A DNA stretch of 26,829 bases from Megamonas hypermegale (GTDB lineage: Bacteria > Bacillota > Negativicutes > Selenomonadales > Selenomonadaceae): positions 1 through 26,829 of the forward strand of contig DCFC01000001.1 of NCBI GenBank assembly GCA_002314325.1, given 5' to 3'. Position numbers and translations under genes: made by a program. Below the pieces are notes generated by a model, which was not told where the DNA came from, ran no database searches, and worked only from the letters and a program-made list of their open reading frames with translations. Below are positions 11,294 through 26,425 of the stretch, in pieces. Each line of letters begins with the position of its first letter. Within the stretch, counting starts at the first letter, position 1.

Positions 11294-12898
11294 TTGAAAA
11301 TACTATTGAAAAACGGACTTATCGTGGACGGCAATAAGACAAAACCGTATACAGGCAATGTCCTTATTAAAGATGAATTTATCCGCGGCGTCGGCGATGT
11401 CGAAATTCATGACGCTGATAAAATCATAGACCTTGGCGGATTGGCAGTTTCTCCCGGATTTATCGATACGCACAGCCACAGCGATTTGGAAATTCTGACC
11501 AAACCTGAGGTAATGCCGAAAATCATGCAGGGCATTACAACGGAAATACTGGGGCAGGACGGTATCTCCATGGCGCCACTGCCGGAGCAGTATATCAGCC
11601 CATGGCGCAAAAATCTTGCCGGGCTGGACGGCGAGAGCAATGAAATAAACTGGAATTACCGGACTACAGAAAATTATCTGCACATGATACAAAAAGTCAA
11701 ACCTGCTCCAAATGAATGTTATCTGGTACCGCACGGCAACATTCGCATAGAAGCCATGGGACTTAGCAATCGTCAGCCTACCGCAAAAGAAATGCAGAAA
11801 ATGTGCGCTATAACCGAACGCGAATTGACGAGCGGCGCTATTGGTCTTTCCACCGGATTAATTTATATGCCGTGCGCCTACAGCAAAACGGAAGAACTCA
11901 TTGAGCTTTGCAAAGTCGTCGCCGAACATGACGGAATTTTCGTCGTTCATCAGCGCAGTGAAGCTGATACCATAATCCAATCCATGCAGGAAATCATTGA
12001 TGTCGGTAGAAAATCCGGCGTCAAAATCCATTTTTCCCATTTCAAGGTATGCGGCAAGAAAAACTGGCAGTATGTCGACCGGATGCTTCAGCTTCTCGAC
12101 AGTGCTGAGCAGGACGGTATCAGAATTTCCTTTGACCAGTATCCGTATGTCGCCGGCAGTACCATGCTGGGCGTCATCCTGCCGCCATGGGTTCACGACG
12201 GTGGTACGAATAAAGTCATCGAGCGATTAAAAGATGAAAAACTGCGACAAAAAATGATTTACGATATACAGCACGGAATTGACGGCTGGGATAACTTCAT
12301 CGACTTTGCCGGATTAGACGGAATTTACATCACCAGTGTCAAGCACAAACAGAACGAAGACGCCGTCGGTCTGAACCTTGTCGAACTCGGCAAATTAAAA
12401 GAAAAAAATCCGTATGATGCCACTTTCGATTTACTGCTGGAAGAAGAAAACGCCGTCGGCATGGTGGATTTTTACGGAACAGAAGAACACGTAAAGAAAT
12501 TTCTCTGCCGACCTGAAATGAACGCCTGCACCGACGGACTGCTCAGCGGTAAGCCTCATCCCAGAGTTTACGGTACATTCCCCCGCATTTTGGGAAAATA
12601 CGTACGCGAAGAAAAAACACTTTCACTGGAAGATGCCGTTTATAAAATGACGAAAAGACCGGCCGAAACGTTTCGCCTTGCCGGTCGCGGTCAATTGAAA
12701 GCAGGTTTTTATGCCGATATTACCGTCTTTGATAAAGACACGATTATCGACAAGGGTACATTCACCAATCCCATTCAGTATCCGGAAGGTATCTGTTACG
12801 TATTCGTCAACGGACAGATGATTGTTGACAATAAAAAATACACTGGTGCCCGCTGTGGAAAAGTATTACGCAAACAGGGAACCGGTGTGAAAGATTAA
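11294..12898 (+). CDS. D-aminoacylase / N-acyl-D-amino acid deacylase family amidohydrolase
   Basis: The 534-residue protein belongs to the amidohydrolase superfamily, D-aminoacylase branch. Visible residues are H60 and H62 in the HSHSD motif, H219 in VVHQR, H249 in HFSHFK, and D414 in TDGLLSGKPHPR. The position of the family's metal-bridging Cys (NCG in characterised D-aminoacylases) is D89 in GQDG here, so the metal site is altered or belongs to a subfamily. Start is TTG with GGAGG eight bases upstream. The expected reaction is hydrolysis of an N-acyl or N-carbamoyl amino acid, with the substrate unknown. It closes the GC-richer half of the cluster. The next gene is clearly more AT-rich. 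Confidence 0.85.
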   Translation: MKILLKNGLIVDGNKTKPYTGNVLIKDEFIRGVGDVEIHDADKIIDLGGLAVSPGFIDTHSHSDLEILTKPEVMPKIMQGITTEILGQDGISMAPLPEQYISPWRKNLAGLDGESNEINWNYRTTENYLHMIQKVKPAPNECYLVPHGNIRIEAMGLSNRQPTAKEMQKMCAITERELTSGAIGLSTGLIYMPCAYSKTEELIELCKVVAEHDGIFVVHQRSEADTIIQSMQEIIDVGRKSGVKIHFSHFKVCGKKNWQYVDRMLQLLDSAEQDGIRISFDQYPYVAGSTMLGVILPPWVHDGGTNKVIERLKDEKLRQKMIYDIQHGIDGWDNFIDFAGLDGIYITSVKHKQNEDAVGLNLVELGKLKEKNPYDATFDLLLEEENAVGMVDFYGTEEHVKKFLCRPEMNACTDGLLSGKPHPRVYGTFPRILGKYVREEKTLSLEDAVYKMTKRPAETFRLAGRGQLKAGFYADITVFDKDTIIDKGTFTNPIQYPEGICYVFVNGQMIVDNKKYTGARCGKVLRKQGTGVKD

Positions 12899-12935
12899 AA
12901 GTTCTGTTTTCTGAGATATATAAGAGGTGTCCTAT

Positions 12936-14360
12936 ATGTTCGATATTATTATAAAAAACGGTAATGTAGTTTCCCCTTCTTCCACAATTCGTTGCGATAT
13001 TGCTATAAAAGATGAAAAAATCGTTTCTCTCGGTAATTTTACAGATGAAAACGCTGCAAGAATAATCGATGCTACTGATAAATACGTACTGCCCGGCGTA
13101 ATCGAGGCTCATATGCACTGCATGGCACCATTTCAGGGATGCCTCGGAGCAAACGATTTTTTTGAACAAAGTGTGAGCGGTGCTTTTGGCGGAGTTACGA
13201 TGTTTATGGACTTTGCCAACATGAGTAAAGGCTGCTCACCGTATAAACAGGCTATTGCTCGTGCGGATGAAATGAAAATCTCGGCTATTGACTACAGTGT
13301 TCATGGAAAAATTGTCGAATCCACCACCCAAGCATTAAACGACATAAAAACCATGATAGAAAACGGCATACCTACTTTTAAAATGTTCATGACATATAAA
13401 AAAGAAGACGTCATGTCTGATGATGAAACGCTTTTAAAAACGTTCAAGCAAGCTAAACAGTTCGGCGGTATGCCTATGCTTCACTGCGAAAGCAATTCCA
13501 TAGCTGAAACCAATATCGAAGAATGTATAAAAAAAGATGATTTGAGTTGGAAAAACTTCGCCAAATGCAAACCAGTTTTATGTGAGGTGGAAGCATTTGC
13601 CCGCGCTGTTTGTCTGGCCCGATATATAGGCAGTGCTCTTATAATCGTACATACGACGAATGGTGCGGCACTGGATATAGCTCGCAAAATCCATGAAGAA
13701 AATTTTCCGTTATATGTGGAAACAGGTCCTCATTATATGACTTTGTTCGATGACCTGTATGAAAAAAATGACGGCTATCTGGCAATCTGTTCACCACCTT
13801 TGCGAACTCCTAAAGAAGCAAACGAATTATGGCAGGGCATTATGGATGATACCATAAGTCTAACTGGTTCTGATGACTGCACTTTTGATGTCGATGAAAA
13901 ATCCTGTTTCCTTGAAAAAAATCCCGATAATACATTCAAAGAGGATTTTACCAAAGTTGTAAACGGAATTTCAGGTTTGGAAACACGGTTACCATTACTC
14001 CTTTCAGAAGGAGTTTCTAAAGGCCGTATTTCTATAAATAAAGTCTGTGCGCTCACCAGTACAAATATCGCCAAAGTATACGGCTGTTATCCTCAAAAAG
14101 GAATTATTGCGCCGGGAAGCGATGCCGATATCGTCATTGTTGATATGAATAAGGAAGTTACTTTATCAAAAGATATTCTTCATAACAATATCAGTTATTG
14201 TCTGTACGACGGTTTTAAGATAAAAGGATATCCTGTAATGACTATTGCCCGTGGAAAAATTATTGTTGAAAATGGTGAATTTAAAGGTAAAAAATCAGCA
14301 GGACATTTTATCAAACGCAAAATAAATCCTTACTATCTGAATAAATTCGATTTGAATTGA
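12936..14360 (+). CDS. Dihydropyrimidinase / hydantoinase, copy 1
   Basis: The 474-residue cyclic amidohydrolase opens hydantoin or dihydropyrimidine rings to N-carbamoyl amino acids. The binuclear metal ligands are all present: H59 and H61 in AHMH, the carboxylated lysine K149 in FKMFM, H183 in LHCES, H239 in IVHTT, and D313. The residue after the metal Asp is D314, where most family members have His (TDH or SDH). This may shift substrate range. ATG 12936 is chosen because AAGAGGTG ends six bases before it. The GTG at 12927 overlaps that SD. The gene is followed closely by an NCS1 transporter, a racemase and a second hydantoinase, forming an AT-richer block. Confidence 0.88.
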   Translation: MFDIIIKNGNVVSPSSTIRCDIAIKDEKIVSLGNFTDENAARIIDATDKYVLPGVIEAHMHCMAPFQGCLGANDFFEQSVSGAFGGVTMFMDFANMSKGCSPYKQAIARADEMKISAIDYSVHGKIVESTTQALNDIKTMIENGIPTFKMFMTYKKEDVMSDDETLLKTFKQAKQFGGMPMLHCESNSIAETNIEECIKKDDLSWKNFAKCKPVLCEVEAFARAVCLARYIGSALIIVHTTNGAALDIARKIHEENFPLYVETGPHYMTLFDDLYEKNDGYLAICSPPLRTPKEANELWQGIMDDTISLTGSDDCTFDVDEKSCFLEKNPDNTFKEDFTKVVNGISGLETRLPLLLSEGVSKGRISINKVCALTSTNIAKVYGCYPQKGIIAPGSDADIVIVDMNKEVTLSKDILHNNISYCLYDGFKIKGYPVMTIARGKIIVENGEFKGKKSAGHFIKRKINPYYLNKFDLN

Positions 14361-14375
14361 CAAAGGAGGTTCATC

Positions 14376-15875
14376 ATGAATATGTATCAACGTCAAATAG
14401 GTGATATTGTAGAATTAACCGATGAAGGTTTAAAAGCAATAAAAAATTATCCCAACAACTATACAGACAACACACGCCCCGTTCCAGTCAAAGAACGCAA
14501 CTGGTCTGCCATAAGTATAACTAATCTGTGGGTTGGAATGCTTGTTTCAATCGCTGTATATCAAGTAGCAAGTGGTTTAATCGTTGCGGGTATGTCATGG
14601 TGGCAGGCTTTGTTCACAATAGTGCTCGGTCATTCTCTTGTAATGTTTTTTGCAGTTGTTTTGGGTCATTTCGGTACAAGATACGGCGTAACGTATCCTA
14701 TGTTATGTAAATTCATATTCGGCAGTAAAGGAACAATCGTTCCGTCCATAGTAAGAGGCGGTCTCGGCTGTTTCTGGTTCGGTGTACAAGCATGGATTGG
14801 CGGTCAGGCATTAAATGCCATTTTTGAAGTGCTATTTCCTTCCTTTGCCAATGAAACATTCTTGAGCTATTTTATTTCGTTTATTATCTTTTGGGCAATA
14901 AACGTCTATATCGCTTCTTCTGGTTCCAATGCAATTAAAGCCCTGGAAAATTATTCTGCACCTTTGCTGATAGTTTTAAGTTTCATTGTTATTATATGGG
15001 GCCTTTATACAGCAGATTGGAGTATTTATACTTTACTGTCGGTTCCGGCACTTCAGGGAAATCCTGACAAAAACTTCTGGGATTTATTTTTCCCCGCATT
15101 ATCCGCAATGATTGCCTTTGACGGCGGTATTGCTCTTTCCATGGCAGATTTCACGCGTAACTGCAAAACTCAGAAAGCACAAATCATTGGACAGCTGACG
15201 GCAGCTCCCATCATGACAGCATTTATTTCCTTTGTCGGCATTTGCGGTACCGGCGGAGCTTTTCTAGCATTCAATGAAGCAATCTGGGAACCGGCAGTAT
15301 TGGTAAGTAAGTTCAATAATCCTTTTATTGTAATAATTTTCTCCGTATTTATCATAATGGCTGTCTTGACTACAAATGTAGCAGCTAATCTGGTTCCGCC
15401 TACAAACGTTATATCTACTTTATTTGCAAAAAAAATATCGTATAAAGCAGCGGCTATCATAGCAGCCGTACTGGCTTTATTCGCTCAACCATGGAATGCT
15501 TTATCCAGTGCGTATACGTTAATTTTCAATGTATGCGGTATTTTGGGTGCTTTATTAGGTCCTATTTCCGGATTATACGTCGTTGCATATCTGATTGAAC
15601 ATCGATGCAAAGTCAATCTCGTAGACCTTTATCGTGAGGACAATAACAGTCAGTATTACTATTATAAAGGCTGGAACGTAGGAATAATTTCCATCTTTAT
15701 TTTATCCAGTATCATTATTTTAATTGGAAAGTTCGTTCCTTCGCTTGAATTTGTCTTCAATAATTCCTACGTTATCGGCAGCATAGGCGCTGGAGTTCTA
15801 TACTATTTTTATTTAAAAATGAATTTTTCCTACGAAAAAAAGGATTTATCTTATGAAAAAAATATTAATAATTAA
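14376..15875 (+). CDS. NCS1-family nucleobase/hydantoin/allantoin transporter
   Basis: The 499-residue membrane protein has about 12 transmembrane helices and the N-terminal PVPVKERNWS region typical of NCS1 permeases (PucI, CodB, Mhp1 relatives). The stretch FWFGVQAWIGGQ near residue 128 corresponds to the helix-3 substrate region, with its aromatic residues. NCS1 members import cytosine, purines, allantoin or hydantoins with Na+ or H+. Lying between a hydantoinase and a hydantoin racemase, this one is most likely a cyclic ureide importer (inference). The ATG has AGGAGG upstream. Its 3' end overlaps the racemase gene by 23 bases, indicating coupling. Confidence 0.9.
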   Translation: MNMYQRQIGDIVELTDEGLKAIKNYPNNYTDNTRPVPVKERNWSAISITNLWVGMLVSIAVYQVASGLIVAGMSWWQALFTIVLGHSLVMFFAVVLGHFGTRYGVTYPMLCKFIFGSKGTIVPSIVRGGLGCFWFGVQAWIGGQALNAIFEVLFPSFANETFLSYFISFIIFWAINVYIASSGSNAIKALENYSAPLLIVLSFIVIIWGLYTADWSIYTLLSVPALQGNPDKNFWDLFFPALSAMIAFDGGIALSMADFTRNCKTQKAQIIGQLTAAPIMTAFISFVGICGTGGAFLAFNEAIWEPAVLVSKFNNPFIVIIFSVFIIMAVLTTNVAANLVPPTNVISTLFAKKISYKAAAIIAAVLALFAQPWNALSSAYTLIFNVCGILGALLGPISGLYVVAYLIEHRCKVNLVDLYREDNNSQYYYYKGWNVGIISIFILSSIIILIGKFVPSLEFVFNNSYVIGSIGAGVLYYFYLKMNFSYEKKDLSYEKNINN

Positions 15876-16587
15876 CCCGAATACATCGCCTGAAATGACA
15901 AATGATATCCGCTCTACCATAGAACATATCAAAGACGAAAATATTGATACCGTTACGATTTGTCCTGATTTTGGCTCTCCGTCTTTAGAATCTTTTTATG
16001 ATTACAATCTAGCTTCATTTGCTGTAATACGATTGCTTAATAAATTAAATAAATCCGGTCAGCATTTTGACGGAATTTTAATTTCCTGTTTTGGAGACCC
16101 CGGATTATATGCAATTAAGGAAATATCAAATGTTCCCGTCATCGGTATTGCCGAAGCCTCTATGGCTGTTTCTCTGTTAATGGGACAAAAATTCAGCCTA
16201 TTAGTAGCTTCAAAAAAAGCTGTTCCTATGATGAAAGATATGGTCAATCAATACGGACTTACATCTCGCTTGGCTTCTATTGAAAGTATGAATGCCAATG
16301 TATTAGATGTCGAGCAGGATAAACAGAAATTTATTAATAAATCAATTCTAATTGGTGAAAAAGCTATAGCCAAAGGTGCTGAAGTTTTGATTTTAGGCTG
16401 TGCCGGTATGACGAATATGCAGACAAAAATAAAAGAAGCATTAAATATTCCTGTTATTGACCCTGTTGTATACGGTTATAAAACTTTAGAAATGATGGTT
16501 GAAAATAATTTTCCTATTTCCAAAATCGGTTTATATAAAACACCTTATTCTAAAAAAATCTTAAAAGAAAATCTGCTTTATATGTGA
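15853..16587 (+). CDS. Asp/Glu/hydantoin racemase family protein
   Basis: The 244-residue cytosolic racemase has the two catalytic cysteines of the family, C79 in ISCFGDPG and C183 in LGCAGMT, and the N-terminal INPNTS motif. These features point to the hydantoin or allantoin racemase branch rather than glutamate racemase for cell walls. It would interconvert enantiomers of a 5-substituted hydantoin so that stereospecific hydantoinases can use both. It starts inside the end of the transporter gene, with AAGGAT upstream of ATG 15853. Placement between the transporter and the second hydantoinase supports this role. Confidence 0.88.
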   Translation: MKKILIINPNTSPEMTNDIRSTIEHIKDENIDTVTICPDFGSPSLESFYDYNLASFAVIRLLNKLNKSGQHFDGILISCFGDPGLYAIKEISNVPVIGIAEASMAVSLLMGQKFSLLVASKKAVPMMKDMVNQYGLTSRLASIESMNANVLDVEQDKQKFINKSILIGEKAIAKGAEVLILGCAGMTNMQTKIKEALNIPVIDPVVYGYKTLEMMVENNFPISKIGLYKTPYSKKILKENLLYM

Positions 16588-16615
16588 AATTACCCTATAA
16601 AAGGAGGTATACTTC

Positions 16616-17992
16616 ATGAAAATGCTCTTAACAGGTGGAACTGTAGTTTCTGGTAGCGGTTGTTTTTTGGCCGATATTCTCATCGAAAACGAAAAAATCA
16701 CAGCCGTTGGTAATACAAATACCTTATCACATATGATAGACAGCAATACCGTGAATTTTGATGTATCTGGTAAATTGCTTTTTCCCGGTTTTGTCGATGC
16801 TCATACGCATTTTGATTTACATGTTGCTGGAACCGTAACTGCTGATGATTTTGCTACAGGCACAAAAGCCGCCATAAAAGGCGGGACTACGACGATAATA
16901 GATTTTGCTACGCAATATCCCGGAGAAAGTTTATCACAAGCTCTAAAAAACTGGCATAATAAAGCTGATGGAAAATGTTCTTGTGATTACAGTTTTCATA
17001 TGTCCATAAGTGAATGGAACTCTACCATTTGTCAGGAAACTCAAAAAATGATAGATGAAGGTATTACTTCTTTTAAGTTATATATGACTTATGATACCAT
17101 GGTAGATGATAAAACAATCTTTCAAATACTGTACAGGTTAAAACAAATTCACGGTATAGCCGGTGTTCATTGCGAAAATGACGGCATTATTGCCGCTCTT
17201 AGAGAAAATGTTTCATCTCGTCAAGATGTGTCCAATCATTATAAAACACGTCCTGATGTTGTTGAAGCTGAAGCAATCAATCGTCTGTTGTCAATTGCTG
17301 AAATTATTGATATTCCTGTAATTATTGTGCACCTCACCTGTAAAAAAGGATACGATGTAATTACAAATGCAAGAAAACGCGGACAAAAAATATATGTTGA
17401 AACTTGTCCGCAGTATCTGCTATTGGATAATCATTTTTATAATCAGCCCTATAATGAGGCTTCTAAATATGTATGTGCACCACCACTGCGAACAAAAGAC
17501 GACCAAAAATACTTATGGAAAGGTTTATCTAACGGAACTATTCAAACCATATCCACAGACCATTGCAGTTTTACTACGTTTCAAAAAAATTGGGACAAAA
17601 ACGATTTTACGAAAATCCCTGGTGGTGTACCCGGAGTAGAACACAGAGGAAATCTCATTTATTCGTATGGTGTTACAAAAAAACGAATTACGCTTGAAAC
17701 AATGTGTCGTGTCCTGTCAGAAAATCCGGCTAAATTGTACGGTATATATCCAAAAAAAGGAATTATCGCTCCTGGCAGTGATGCCGATATTGTAATCCTA
17801 AATCCTGCTGTGAATGAAAAAATCACAGCTGCAAATCAAATACAGCATGTTGATTATACACCATATGAAGGTATCTCTCTTTCTTCTAGAATTGAGGATG
17901 TGTTCCTGCGCGGACAACATGTTGTAAAAAACAGTCAAGTAGTTGCAGAAAAAACAGGTATATTTCTTAAAAGAAATACTTACAATCTATAA
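16616..17992 (+). CDS. Dihydropyrimidinase / hydantoinase, copy 2
   Basis: This second cyclic amidohydrolase has 458 residues and a complete metal site: H63 and H65 in AHTHFD, carboxylated lysine K154 in SFKLYM, H185 in VHCEN, H239 in IVHLT, and D315 followed by H316 in STDHCSF. It retains the usual TDHC motif that copy 1 has changed. Both copies share the C-terminal KKGIIAPGSDADIVI segment and are paralogues. Having two suggests two substrates or two enantiomers. SD AAGGAGG precedes ATG 16616 and a bidirectional terminator follows, so this is the last gene of the cluster. Confidence 0.9.
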   Translation: MKMLLTGGTVVSGSGCFLADILIENEKITAVGNTNTLSHMIDSNTVNFDVSGKLLFPGFVDAHTHFDLHVAGTVTADDFATGTKAAIKGGTTTIIDFATQYPGESLSQALKNWHNKADGKCSCDYSFHMSISEWNSTICQETQKMIDEGITSFKLYMTYDTMVDDKTIFQILYRLKQIHGIAGVHCENDGIIAALRENVSSRQDVSNHYKTRPDVVEAEAINRLLSIAEIIDIPVIIVHLTCKKGYDVITNARKRGQKIYVETCPQYLLLDNHFYNQPYNEASKYVCAPPLRTKDDQKYLWKGLSNGTIQTISTDHCSFTTFQKNWDKNDFTKIPGGVPGVEHRGNLIYSYGVTKKRITLETMCRVLSENPAKLYGIYPKKGIIAPGSDADIVILNPAVNEKITAANQIQHVDYTPYEGISLSSRIEDVFLRGQHVVKNSQVVAEKTGIFLKRNTYNL

Positions 17993-22534: not shown

Positions 22535-22611
22535 GCGGCTGTAGCTCAGACGGATAGAGCATTCGCCTCCTAAGCGAAGGGTCGCGTGTTCGACTCACGC
22601 CAGTCGCACCA
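22535..22611 (+). tRNA. tRNA-Arg (anticodon CCU)
   Basis: The full cloverleaf can be drawn. The acceptor stem GCGGCTG/CAGTCGC has one G-U, the D stem is GCTC/GAGC, the anticodon stem TTCGC/GCGAA closes loop CTCCTAA (anticodon CCT), and the T stem GCGTG/CACGC closes loop TTCGACT. The discriminator A and CCA are encoded. It reads AGG codons. Its last 26 bases are repeated exactly at 23347-23372, on the far side of the dinJ-yafQ genes. Confidence 0.96.
22586..22611 (+). repeat. Left att-like direct repeat (within tRNA-Arg)
   Basis: This is the 3' 26 bases of tRNA-Arg, identical to 23347-23372. Identity stops exactly at both edges (C versus T before it, C versus T after it). Confidence 0.9.
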
Positions 22612-22624
22612 CAAATATAAAAAC

Positions 22625-22657
22625 AAAGGAATGTAGCCAATATCGCTACATTCCTTT
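22625..22657 (+). terminator. Terminator directly after tRNA-Arg
   Basis: AAAGGAATGTAGC (22625-22637) pairs perfectly with GCTACATTCCTTT (22645-22657) around a 7-base loop and runs into further T residues. It lies inside the repeat-bounded unit, so it probably came with the insertion. Confidence 0.88.
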
Positions 22658-22713
22658 TTTATGTTTTATTAAATACAAATAACGAAATTATAGTTAAATT
22701 TTTATACATTATA

Positions 22714-22759
22714 TTGTTTTCTTCGTGCAAATAAAATATAATATAATTAATAGCACGAA
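22714..22759 (+). promoter_or_regulatory. dinJ-yafQ promoter and putative autoregulation operator
   Basis: TTGTTT (22714-22719) and TATAAT (22737-22742) are spaced by 17 bases. TTCGTGC (22722-22728) and GCACGAA (22753-22759) form a perfect inverted repeat flanking the -10. The second arm runs into the SD. Such repeats are the usual binding sites of the antitoxin's ribbon-helix-helix domain. Confidence 0.6.
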
Positions 22760-22772
22760 AGGAGATGATTTT

Positions 22773-23051
22773 ATGGCTGGCTCTACTACAAATATCAGTA
22801 TTCGAATGGACGCTGACCTCAAAGCACAGGCTGACGCATTGTTCAACGAACTGGGAATGAACCTTTCCACTGCGTTCAATATCTTTGTCCGCCAGTCTCT
22901 CCGGGAAGGCAGAATACCCTTTAACATTTCTCTAAATCAGCCCAACAAGGAAACGATTGCCGCCATGTTGGAAGCAGAAAGGATTGCAAAGGACCCATCC
23001 GTGAAAGGCTATACCAATCTGAATGAGCTGTTTGCGGATTTGGAAAAATGA
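22773..23051 (+). CDS. dinJ: RelB/DinJ-family antitoxin
   Basis: This 92-residue antitoxin has an N-terminal ribbon-helix-helix DNA-binding part (about 1-48, from TTNISIRMDADLK onward) and a C-terminal toxin-binding tail (about 55-92). It would neutralise YafQ and repress its own promoter. ATG 22773 has the strong SD AAAGGAGATG. The TGA stop overlaps the yafQ ATG (ATGA), the standard coupling in these operons. It lies between the two att-like repeats. Confidence 0.9.
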   Translation: MAGSTTNISIRMDADLKAQADALFNELGMNLSTAFNIFVRQSLREGRIPFNISLNQPNKETIAAMLEAERIAKDPSVKGYTNLNELFADLEK

Positions 23052-23338
23052 CAAAAACAAAGTATATTGTCAAAACCACAACACAATTCAAAAAGGACTA
23101 TAAACTGGCAGTCAAGCGCGGATTAAAAATCGGTCTGTTAAAGGATATTGTTGCAGCTCTGGCTATGGGTAAGACACTTCCTGAAAAAAACAAAGACCAT
23201 GCACTTACCGGAAACTGGGTAGGACATCGTGAATGTCATATCCTTCCAGATTGGCTGCTTATTTATCGCATTGAAGATGATGTATTAGTACTGACATTGA
23301 CCAGAACCGGCAGTCATAGTGATTTATTCGGAAAATAA
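23048..23338 (+). CDS. yafQ: YafQ-family mRNA interferase toxin
   Basis: The 96-residue RelE-superfamily toxin cuts mRNA on the ribosome when free of antitoxin. Residues matching the E. coli YafQ active site are visible: H51 in DHALTG, H64 and D68 in the RECHILPDW segment, and H90 with F94 in RTGSHSDLF. The protein therefore looks intact and active. It overlaps the antitoxin gene by four bases. Its stop codon is only eight bases before the second 26-bp tRNA repeat, so it fills the island to its right edge. Confidence 0.92.
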   Translation: MTKTKYIVKTTTQFKKDYKLAVKRGLKIGLLKDIVAALAMGKTLPEKNKDHALTGNWVGHRECHILPDWLLIYRIEDDVLVLTLTRTGSHSDLFGK

Positions 23339-23346
23339 ATATTCAT

Positions 23347-23372
23347 GTGTTCGACTCACGCCAGTCGCACCA
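23347..23372 (+). repeat. Right att-like direct repeat (tRNA-Arg 3' fragment)
   Basis: This is an exact 26-base copy of the tRNA-Arg 3' end, including CCA. No acceptor 5' half, D arm or anticodon arm precedes it, so it is not a tRNA gene. It marks the far junction of the dinJ-yafQ insertion. Confidence 0.9.
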
Positions 23373-23386
23373 TATTTGAATGCAAT

Positions 23387-23421
23387 AAAGGATATACCTG
23401 AATATTTTCGGTATATCCTTT
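23387..23421 (+). terminator. Terminator after the right repeat
   Basis: AAAGGATATACC (23387-23398) pairs perfectly with GGTATATCCTTT (23410-23421), followed by further T residues. It lies 15 bases past the right repeat, where the tRNA's own terminator would be before insertion. Confidence 0.85.
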
Positions 23422-23580: not shown

Positions 23581-24507
23581 ATGACTATGAATATATGCGG
23601 CGCACCGTGCTGCTGGGGCGTCGATGATGTAAAAAATCCGTATCTGCCGAAATGGCAGACCGTTTTGAAAGAAGCAGGACTTGCCGGCTACAGAGCTATC
23701 GAACTCGGACCGTACGGCTATCTGCCGATTGATATTGACCTTGTTTCCGCCGAACTTGCCAAAAACAATCTCGCCATCGTTGCCGGAACAATTTTTGACG
23801 ATTTAGTGAGTGAAGATAACTATAAAAATATCATGCGCCAGACGGAAGATATCTGCTCACTGATTACGAAACTGCCGCCGTTGCCGGTGCACGAAGGACA
23901 ACATTTCCCGACTCCGTACATGACGATTATGGACTGGGGACACGACGAACGCGACTACGCCGCCGGTCACAGCGACAGAGCACCGCGCCTTTCTAAAGAT
24001 GAATGGGATAAAATGATAGAACATATCATCGGCATCTGCAAAAAAGCGGCTGAATACGGCGTGCGTCCCGTAATCCATCCTCATGCCGGCGGCTACATCG
24101 AGTTCGCTGACGAAATCGAAGCCGTTATGCGCGATATTCCATATGAAATCGCTGGTCTTTGTCTTGATACAGGCCATCTGTATTATTCCGGCATGAACCC
24201 GAGCCAATGGCTCAAAAAATGCGCCGACCGCCTCGATTACGTTCATTTCAAAGATGTGAACGAAACTGTATACAAACAGGTTCTGTCGGAGCATATCCGC
24301 TTCTTCGAAGGCTGCGGCAAAGGTTCCATGTGCCCAATCGGCAAAGGCTGCCTCGATTATCCCGCTATTAAAAAGACACTCGAAGAAATCGGCTACAGCG
24401 GCTATATAACAATCGAACAGGAACGCGACCCGCGCAATGTGGCTACAAGTCTTAGAGATGTGAAGGAAAGCGTTACGTATTTAAAAAGCGTAGGCTATGA
24501 AATTTAA
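23581..24507 (+). CDS. IolE-like sugar isomerase/dehydratase (TIM barrel)
   Basis: The 308-residue protein belongs to the xylose-isomerase-like TIM-barrel family and is closest in pattern to inosose dehydratase IolE. Likely metal ligands are E174 (after HPHAGGYI), D196 with H199 in CLDTGHL, H222 in YVHFKD, and E279 in TIEQE. The start ATG has GGGAGG upstream. A second ATG at 23587 is possible. It is paired with an IolH-like gene 21 bases downstream, but no iolG, iolC, iolD or iolB is in the window. The substrate could be an inosose or a related keto-sugar. The exact reaction is uncertain. Confidence 0.8.
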   Translation: MTMNICGAPCCWGVDDVKNPYLPKWQTVLKEAGLAGYRAIELGPYGYLPIDIDLVSAELAKNNLAIVAGTIFDDLVSEDNYKNIMRQTEDICSLITKLPPLPVHEGQHFPTPYMTIMDWGHDERDYAAGHSDRAPRLSKDEWDKMIEHIIGICKKAAEYGVRPVIHPHAGGYIEFADEIEAVMRDIPYEIAGLCLDTGHLYYSGMNPSQWLKKCADRLDYVHFKDVNETVYKQVLSEHIRFFEGCGKGSMCPIGKGCLDYPAIKKTLEEIGYSGYITIEQERDPRNVATSLRDVKESVTYLKSVGYEI

Positions 24508-24528
24508 TAAATTGAGGAGGTTATTTTT

Positions 24529-25449
24529 ATGAAAATCGCATTTGACGTCGATGTTTTGGCAAAACAGATGAGCATCAATGACATGGTGCATAAAGTTGCC
24601 GACTGGGGTTACAAATACATCGAACAGTCCCCGCATCCGCGCATCAATCCATTCTATAAACATCCCCTGTTTTCCAAAGAATGTGAAGATGAATACAGAA
24701 AAGCCCTGAAAGAAACGGGCGTGGAAATTTCTTCCTTTATCTGTGTATACCGCTGGTCCGGCCCGACGGAAGAACAGCGCCAGCACGCTGTTGCCAACTG
24801 GAAAAAACTGATTGAAATCGCTGTAAATATGGGCGTTCCTGTAATCAATACGGAACTTTCCGGCGACCCTAATCAGCAGGAAATCTGCAATGGCATGTGG
24901 TTCCGCTCCATGGAAGAACTGCTGCCGATTATTGAACGCGAAGGTCTGCGCGTGGAAATCCAGTCCCATCCGTACGATTTCTGCGAATTGAATAATGAAA
25001 CATGCGACATGGTAAAATCGTTCCGCTCCAAAAATCTCGGCTACGTATATTCCTCACCGCACGGCTTCTTCTATGACCAGGGCAAAGGCGATGTCCGCTC
25101 CATGCTCCGCTATGCCGGCGATGAACTGACGCACGTTTTATTTGCTGATACATTCAATCAGACGCTCGATTGCCGTTATATCTTAAATCCGCCGTTTTTG
25201 AATGCACGCAGCAGAGCTGACGCTACAATTCACCAGCACCTTGCTATGGGCGAAGGCGAAGTTGATTTTGACGGCATTTTCGAAACACTGCGCGAAATGA
25301 ATTTTGCCAATAAACAATTAAAACCGGATGCACCGAAAGTAGGCGGTGACAACATTGCCTGCGTATCGTACTTCGGCTTCCCGGAAAAAATGGACCAGCA
25401 GGCTCCGTTGGCACTCGAACGCATTAAACACGAATTACTCGATAAATAA
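24529..25449 (+). CDS. IolH-like sugar phosphate isomerase/epimerase
   Basis: The 306-residue TIM-barrel protein resembles Bacillus IolH over most of its length, as far as I recall it (the MKIAFDVDVL start, KYIEQSPHPRINPF, INTELSGDPNQ and VEIQSHPYDFCELN segments). IolH is found in inositol catabolic operons, and its step is poorly defined. SD GAGGAGG lies before ATG 24529. It is co-transcribed with the IolE-like gene and followed by a terminator, so these two form a complete bicistronic unit. Confidence 0.82.
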   Translation: MKIAFDVDVLAKQMSINDMVHKVADWGYKYIEQSPHPRINPFYKHPLFSKECEDEYRKALKETGVEISSFICVYRWSGPTEEQRQHAVANWKKLIEIAVNMGVPVINTELSGDPNQQEICNGMWFRSMEELLPIIEREGLRVEIQSHPYDFCELNNETCDMVKSFRSKNLGYVYSSPHGFFYDQGKGDVRSMLRYAGDELTHVLFADTFNQTLDCRYILNPPFLNARSRADATIHQHLAMGEGEVDFDGIFETLREMNFANKQLKPDAPKVGGDNIACVSYFGFPEKMDQQAPLALERIKHELLDK

Positions 25450-25471
25450 TAAATAGATTGCACCCTCTTTC

Positions 25472-25509
25472 AGGATATCAAATATTTCACTCTGTTTGAT
25501 ATCCTTTTT
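25472..25509 (+). terminator. Terminator after the iolE/iolH-like pair
   Basis: AGGATATCAAA (25472-25482) pairs perfectly with TTTGATATCCT (25495-25505) around a 12-base loop and is followed by T residues. Confidence 0.88.
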
Positions 25510-25546
25510 CTTGTACTATGAACAATATTTATGAGGAGGAGCATCA

Positions 25547-26425
25547 TTGCTTAAAACAACCACCAATCAGCAATTAAATCTCGTATTCAAAAACGGCATC
25601 CTGCCTACCATGGTCTATATCAACAGACAGGAATGCGGCCGCAATAAAATCGAACGGCCGCTACACAAACACGATACCGTCTGCGAAATAGTCCTCGTCT
25701 ACAAGGGCAGCGGTACATATATGATAAACAACAAAAAATACACACTGCATGAAGGCGATATCGCTTTTTACAATCAAGGCGACCTGCACGAAGTTTCTTC
25801 CGCTTCCGATACGGAAATCGGCGATTACTGCATCGGTCTGACCAATCTGAACCTGAAAAATCTTCCCTACAATCATTTAATAGCAGCAAATGAAGCCTAC
25901 GTGCGCCAATCCGGCAATATGTTTGCCACGCTCAAGGAACTTTGCGAGCAGATGTACACACTCGGCAAGCTGAATGAACACAGCAATCTGACTTCACAGC
26001 TTCTGTGCACCTCATTCATCATCATCGCCACTTCCCTATCGTCTTTCACTGATTACGAAAATAATATCGAAAAAGACAAACAGTTCATGAACCGCATTTT
26101 AAATTATCTTGACGAACATTTCACCGAAGATATTTCCATTAACAAAGTAGCCGACCATCTGGGCTGTTCCAATTCCTATATATCGCATTTATTCAAAAAA
26201 TCACTCGGCATCACGCCCATGCAGTACGTCATAAAACGGCGCATAGGCCTTGCCCAGACACTGCTCATCTCCACCGATTTATCCGCCACCCAGATTGCCA
26301 CTATGGTCGGTTACGACAACGCTAATTATTTTATAAATTCCTTCACCAAAATCATCGGCATAACACCAATCCGCTACCGCAATTTCTACCTTAAAGAACT
26401 GCGCGGCAACCGCCATCAATCATAA
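25547..26425 (+). CDS. AraC-family transcription regulator
   Basis: The 292-residue regulator has an N-terminal cupin-like sensor (about 15-120, with LHKHDTVCEIVLVYKGSG and LHEGDIAFYNQGDLHEV segments) and a C-terminal double HTH of AraC type (about 188-287, with SNSYISHLFKKSLGITP and the final GYDNANYFINSFTKIIGITP signature). Start is TTG with GAGGAGG seven bases upstream. It follows the iolE/iolH-like pair on the same strand after a terminator and probably controls that pair in response to a sugar or polyol (inference). Confidence 0.9.
   Translation: MLKTTTNQQLNLVFKNGILPTMVYINRQECGRNKIERPLHKHDTVCEIVLVYKGSGTYMINNKKYTLHEGDIAFYNQGDLHEVSSASDTEIGDYCIGLTNLNLKNLPYNHLIAANEAYVRQSGNMFATLKELCEQMYTLGKLNEHSNLTSQLLCTSFIIIATSLSSFTDYENNIEKDKQFMNRILNYLDEHFTEDISINKVADHLGCSNSYISHLFKKSLGITPMQYVIKRRIGLAQTLLISTDLSATQIATMVGYDNANYFINSFTKIIGITPIRYRNFYLKELRGNRHQS

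Follow-up and report, generated by a model that had tools for sequence, protein, structure and literature searches.

How does a toxin-antitoxin (TA) pair come to lie, with no recombinase beside it, between two exact copies of the 3' end of a tRNA gene? The locus that raises this question occurs in a stretch of 26,829 nucleotides (hereafter the window) from Megamonas hypermegale (contig DCFC01000001.1), where a dinJ-yafQ pair occupies the 3' side of a tRNA-Arg gene with the anticodon CCU (Table 1). Elements without integration and transfer genes that nevertheless have attL and attR are known as CIMEs (PMC5704250), and Dehalococcoides ssrA islands, bounded by repeats of the 3' end of that RNA gene with crossover near the T loop, include 15 without integration modules that were suggested to be CIMEs (PMC3146451). 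TA modules are described as stabilising integrated elements, as in SXT, SGI1 and, through HipAB, a Shewanella island (PMC2654960, PMC5006074, PMC8978831). In openly licensed literature on Megamonas, on integrative and mobilizable elements of Selenomonas or at tRNA-Arg, and on dinJ-yafQ with att sites or islands, no description of the present system is apparent among the papers listed; the elements treated in PMC12904643 insert largely in small protein genes, and the main text of that paper has no word beginning with tRNA.

Table 1. Features of the tRNA-Arg(CCU) locus in the window, with the basis of each assignment.
Feature	Position	Strand	Basis
tRNA-Arg (anticodon CCU; CCT in DNA), intact, insertion target	22535..22611	+	tRNA call
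Left core copy, T arm to CCA, 26 bp	22586..22611	+	repeat search
Left terminator, probably brought by the insertion	22622..22660	+	terminator scan and analogy with G163
AT-rich spacer, about 57 bases, tandem arm-like repeat not detected	22661..22717	.	sequence scoring
dinJ-yafQ upstream region	22718..22772	+	DNA homology with MT836380.1 starts at 22718
Inverted repeat within the upstream region, putatively operator-like	22722-22734/22747-22759		
dinJ, RelB/DinJ antitoxin, 92 aa	22773..23051	+	RelB PF04221, TIGR02384
yafQ, YafQ-family toxin, 96 aa	23048..23338	+	PF15738 and structure matches
Right core copy, 26 bp, without the anticodon-side part present in family elements	23347..23372	+	repeat search
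Right terminator-like hairpin, candidate for the native terminator of the tRNA	23387..23421	+	inverted repeat

The two copies of the 26-mer that forms the 3' end of tRNA-Arg(CCU) stand 761 bp apart, start to start, are identical at 26/26 positions, and are the only matches with up to three mismatches in the whole window (0/100 shuffles); on both sides, identity between them ends at exactly 26 bp. The genes of the 761-bp unit are dinJ and yafQ alone; integration and transfer genes are absent, as are the integrase or mobilisation functions of its own that an IME would have, no tyrosine integrase was found with a home-made HMM in the open frames of at least 80 aa in the window, and no recombinase was found between the copies. 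The first-pass annotation had described exact tRNA-end copies around nothing but a TA pair, with no integrase and with yafQ ending eight bases before the right copy, and both statements are borne out: the two genes are intact, and the toxin gene stops at 23338, eight bases short of the copy that begins at 23347. Duplication of a transposon target was considered as a source of the repeat and rejected, as the repeat ends exactly at CCA and the unit has no transposase gene.

The start of yafQ (23048) overlaps the end of dinJ (23051), and a RelB/DinJ antitoxin followed by a YafQ-family toxin is the gene layout of DinJ-YafQ type II TA systems. The toxin falls in PF15738 (E 7e-37) and also matches YafQ proteins of solved structure (4ml2, E 2.5e-17); its scores for the equivalog model NF008412 and for TIGR00053 lie below their cut-offs. 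Among the best 120 of 7999 YafQ homologs, those with 94-99% identity are unnamed, and the best named ones, from Ruminococcus sp. CLA-AA-H200 (91%) and a Butyricicoccus (89%), both belong to Clostridia; Ruminococcus and Butyricicoccus are gut bacteria. For the window's own family a set of 189 genomes was reached with its upstream gene as anchor, of which 101 were matched by the YafQ query, the top identity among the matches listed being 69%. A human-faecal contig labelled phage (MT836380.1) has 74.7% DNA identity to the window from 22718 to the end of yafQ, thus across the upstream region and both genes, and YafQ relatives at 51-59% occur in viral contigs at three loci. Because the closest named YafQ proteins are clostridial, because the family reaches at most 69% among the matches listed, and because of the DNA homology with MT836380.1, the pair was probably acquired horizontally. 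It may be kept in the chromosome simply as an ordinary addiction module, and by analogy with the published cases of SXT, SGI1 and the Shewanella island it is plausible that it resists loss.

The two genomes of the nearest genus (G041 and G042) carry the tRNA at 100% and 97% identity, and their upstream genes stand in the window's order with nucleotide identities of about 70% and 77%; in both (2/2) the 26-mer occurs as a single copy at up to two mismatches. YafQ is absent from both (0/2, with the query that matched 101/189 family genomes), and neither has PF00589 at tRNA-Arg(CCU), with 13 matches elsewhere. As their downstream genes differ from those of the window, they are only approximate, species-level empty sites, not clean ones; the comparison proposed in the first-pass annotation, for relatives with an empty site, thus gave one copy and no yafQ in both genomes, but no clean junction. 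A first scan of genome contigs yielded no relative; a second, with a profile of the window protein aligned with 26/39 homologs, reached only 32-46% relatives of the upstream protein, and the window 26-mer was found in none of these. To the right of the repeat, at 23581-26425, the window holds two xylose-isomerase-like TIM-barrel genes and an AraC regulator, a block that may itself have been gained recently, given that neither G041 nor G042 has an ortholog of the first TIM-barrel gene.

Within the same family, tRNA-Arg(CCU) is a real insertion site. Four genomes have a tyrosine integrase of one clade next to it. The integrase of one of them, G162, was matched in 140 of the 189, and its relatives in G163 (97%), G186 (78%) and G127 (74%) all lie beside tRNA-Arg(CCU); the next match, in G046 (51%), is on a contig different from that of the G046 tRNA match. 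In G163 (L246, C9:16800-36700) a whole mobilizable element of about 18.1 kb stands at this tRNA, with both cores, arm-like repeats at both ends, an integrase, a relaxase, a type I restriction-modification system and a Schlafen/AlbA_2 protein, and only DinJ-like fragments are left in it, about 2 kb from the far core. The G162 element reads, from the tRNA, integrase, relaxase, regulators, restriction-type genes, dinJ and yafQ, the last two being diverged from those of the window (51/87 aligned residues shared in YafQ, 27/86 in DinJ). The relaxases of G162 and G163 were assigned by Pfam, a Mob_Pre protein is encoded on the other contig of G127, and the gene immediately ahead of a core on a second G127 contig encodes an MmeI-type enzyme. 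Starting 37 bp past the G162 yafQ, a 66-bp stretch matches the far end of the G163 element at 88% identity; the arm-like pair there is not intact, and the contig (L148, C34) stops 238 bases past yafQ, before any core. A second G162 core lies on another contig (L213, C12), preceded by Schlafen/AlbA-like gene pieces 93% and 84% identical to those of G163. The G162 dinJ-yafQ pair thus lay next to an element end, which may be other than the one at the second core. That G162 has two far-end-like sequences, one past yafQ and one before the second core, with contigs that break between them, suggests tandem elements or a rearrangement. Together with the single copy in G041 and G042 (2/2), the integrase-bearing elements at this tRNA give good support to the first-pass proposal of an insertion at the tRNA 3' end that restored the tRNA.

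Integrase-free islands share the target. A degenerate 26-base pattern matched 144 of the 189 genomes, and twice or more in ten: in G010, G017 and G018 (3/10) the second match corresponds in sequence to a different tRNA-like site, G153, G127 and G162 have their two matches on separate contigs, and in G008, G012, G020 and G022 both are on one strand of one contig. The loci examined, 65 in all (L089, L090 and the 63 regions L126-L188), include some short contig ends, one locus without a core (L188) and a few second pattern matches that are not tRNA-Arg(CCU); repeats of at least 20/26 bases occur in 4/65, and one exact 15-base match to the locus's own tRNA lies downstream in seven further ones (L152, L154-L157, L161, L163). 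The islands are a 3.7-kb unit with an MmeI-type restriction-modification enzyme in G008 (L126); a 10.4-kb island in G012 with a HipA-like protein and a large surface protein, both named by eye; a tandem array in G020 (L128, C10, 73-6107) with three core copies, whose 3.9-kb unit has genes of RelB and ParE type as well as a serine resolvase and whose 2.1-kb unit carries a HigBA-type pair; and an 8.4-kb island in G022, where the full tRNA stands at the end of another contig and the left boundary is one we infer. For the G012 island, G011 provides a clean empty site, the right-flank sequence lying directly 3' of its single copy. No tyrosine integrase was found in these four islands with the HMM, nor PF00589 on their contigs. 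A regular expression for integrases had missed 12 of 20 controls and was replaced by the HMM, which was built from those same 20 controls (20/34 PF00589 places) and so recovers them by construction; run over the 65 loci and the window, it found one integrase, that of G162. The MmeI-type single-protein enzyme of G008 adjoins the far core, and one of the same type stands at the far end of the G127 element (L249, G127:C41), on the opposite strand relative to the tRNA. The second core of G022 (L129) and the third of G020 (L128) are preceded by about 150 bp of similar sequence and by different cargo, which suggests that end modules were exchanged between these elements.

Two properties set the window apart from these relatives, the extent of its core and its flanks. 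The repeat extends further left than the window's by exactly 19 bases in G008, G020 and G022, to the anticodon loop, and by 15 in G012, and the G162 and G163 repeats likewise begin at the anticodon loop; the window has a T-arm core only, its right copy lacking the anticodon side, and none of the integrase-bearing elements found among the family genomes has a core of that kind. Arm-like sequence was scored as two 9-base repeats 10-16 bases apart at 17 element ends, in stretches chosen by eye. The full score of 9/9 was reached at 12/17, comprising 7/7 ends of integrase-bearing elements and 5/10 island ends (a score that 0-3 of 200 shuffles attain); three island ends scored 8/9 (13, 20 and 56 of 200 shuffles), and two, the right end of G008 and the left end of G022, have no such repeats (180 and 198 of 200). 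None was detected on either side of the window unit, with scores of 7/9 and 6/9 (187 and 189 of 200 shuffles). One pair occurs in 3/189 genomes, each time adjoining a core of tRNA-Arg(CCU), and we read these pairs as putative integrase arm sites. Viral contigs contained none of the sequences sought there (the 26-mer, a 23-base piece, the Anaerovibrio-type core and the arm repeat, all 0).

The terminators would fit an insertion that supplied its own. The terminator scan reports the left one at 22625-22657 (two rows, one per strand; shuffle mean 0.7), and the right one, found as an inverted repeat (23387-23398/23410-23421, followed by T5), has an 11-nt loop that exceeds the limits of the scan, where it is unlisted. 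In G163 the terminator beside the tRNA resembles its counterpart in the G162 element, and the one 3' of the right copy is different, which is the arrangement envisaged in the first-pass annotation: a rebuilt tRNA with a new terminator, and another terminator past the right copy. Its further claim, that each window copy has a terminator, holds to the extent that both structures are present; on which of them is native, the alignments disagree, G041 favouring the right one (z about 4.2 vs 2.6) and G042 the left one (z about 2.9 vs 1.1).

On balance, and with moderate confidence, we regard the window unit as a recent, decayed and probably immobile remnant of an integrative element of tRNA-Arg(CCU), similar to a CIME. 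Such an element would insert into the 3' end of the tRNA by tyrosine-integrase recombination, rebuild the tRNA with its own end copy and its own terminator, and leave the second copy at its far end; the integrase, the mobilisation genes and other cargo would then have been deleted, the losses also taking the arm sites and the anticodon-side part of the far core, so that dinJ-yafQ remained beside the far copy in a stub that could probably no longer move. The insertion would be recent because the copies are identical (26/26). We infer the parent by analogy, since no integrase element with a T-arm core was found in the family and no PF00589 lies at the tRNA of G041 or G042. The right end of G008 and the left end of G022, likewise devoid of arm repeats, favour a remnant. 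Against it, the core of the family elements starts near the anticodon loop and that of the window in the T arm; it is weakened further by the G162 contig that carries yafQ and ends without a core, by the other G162 core, which follows Schlafen/AlbA-like pieces and not yafQ, by the DinJ-like fragments that are all G163 keeps of the pair, by the divergence of the G162 YafQ and DinJ from those of the window, and by the differing downstream sequence of G041 and G042. The short repeat would also be accounted for by an integrase of another class whose core is the T arm, but the lack of space for an arm next to yafQ would not.

The same features bear on the suggestion, made alongside that of a residue in the first-pass annotation, of a minimal satellite-like cassette: a non-autonomous 761-bp circle with a tRNA 3'-end core, moved in trans by the integrase of another element. 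Integrase-free units do recur at this tRNA (G008, G012, G020, G022), half of their scored ends (5/10) keep a perfect arm-like pair, one pair of this kind adjoining a core of this tRNA in each of the 3/189 genomes that have it, the 2.1-kb HigBA-type unit of G020 sits in tandem, and the window copies are identical; but no tandem arms were detected on either side of the window unit, the 8 bp between yafQ and the core leave no space for a separate right arm, and the 26-mer and the 23-base piece are absent from viral contigs. With no arm-like repeats detected on either side and a right copy that lacks the anticodon half of the core, a residue fits better, and we consider the cassette unlikely. Improbable to much the same degree is that the repeats form part of a longer tandem array, in which the right copy would be an internal junction and the two TIM-barrel genes and the AraC regulator would belong to another element, with its outer core past the end of the window. 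The first TIM-barrel gene (matched only partially, at 31%, at another place in G041 and not at all in G042), the array in G020 and the possible two far ends of G162 speak for it; no third copy was found, however, in the 3.4 kb to the window end at up to three mismatches, and the GC content of the downstream genes (0.44-0.48) is like that upstream (0.44-0.47). A wider proposal, which we hold doubtful, is that Selenomonadaceae have a cassette system at tRNA-Arg(CCU), without a tyrosine integrase of its own, in which TA pairs and single-protein restriction-modification enzymes, each with its own tRNA end, terminator and arm sites, would be mobilised by IME integrases of one clade acting in trans; the window unit would then be its smallest, still mobile member, and an addiction module by itself could be an integrative element. 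Duplications of this kind are known, but that it is left from an old tandem tRNA gene degraded in place, or from a small duplication, with dinJ-yafQ fallen in by chance, is very improbable, as identity stops directly left of that copy, where yafQ sits, G041 and G042 have a single copy, and an old fragment under no selection would be expected to have diverged from 26/26 identity.

Returning to the remnant, its likeness to CIMEs as defined in PMC5704250 lies in the absence of integration and transfer genes. It differs in being far smaller, in having no arm-like sites detected, and in that accretion with a helper is not seen in the window; attL and attR may be represented by the two 26-bp core copies that are kept, the right one short, and as to decay from an ICE or IME, integrase-bearing elements occur at the same tRNA in the family and a direct parent was not found. 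With the Dehalococcoides ssrA islands, as described in PMC3146451, it shares 3'-end repeats of an RNA gene and the lack of an integrase, whereas those islands are larger, belong to a serine recombinase system and carry reductive dehalogenase cargo. Like SXT, SGI1 and the Shewanella island with HipAB, as their reports describe them, it presents a TA pair on a chromosomal island, but those are large elements whose excision has been studied, and here the pair stands alone as a putative stabiliser. Closest are the elements of G162, G163, G186 and G127, with the same target tRNA, a terminator beside it and, in G162, dinJ-yafQ ahead of sequence like the far end of G163; they differ in keeping an integrase, arm repeats and an anticodon-loop core. 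One bacterial family thus displays the proposed stages, from a complete integrase-bearing element through integrase-free islands with and without arm repeats and a tandem array to a 761-bp TA stub. On such material, whether decaying islands lose their TA genes last becomes a matter of counting, and an integrase clade and an att architecture that use tRNA-Arg(CCU) are pointed to. Elsewhere in the window, at 11294-17992, amidohydrolase/dihydropyrimidinase-like genes, a permease and a racemase-like gene, as read by eye, perhaps form a cluster for hydantoin or ureide use.
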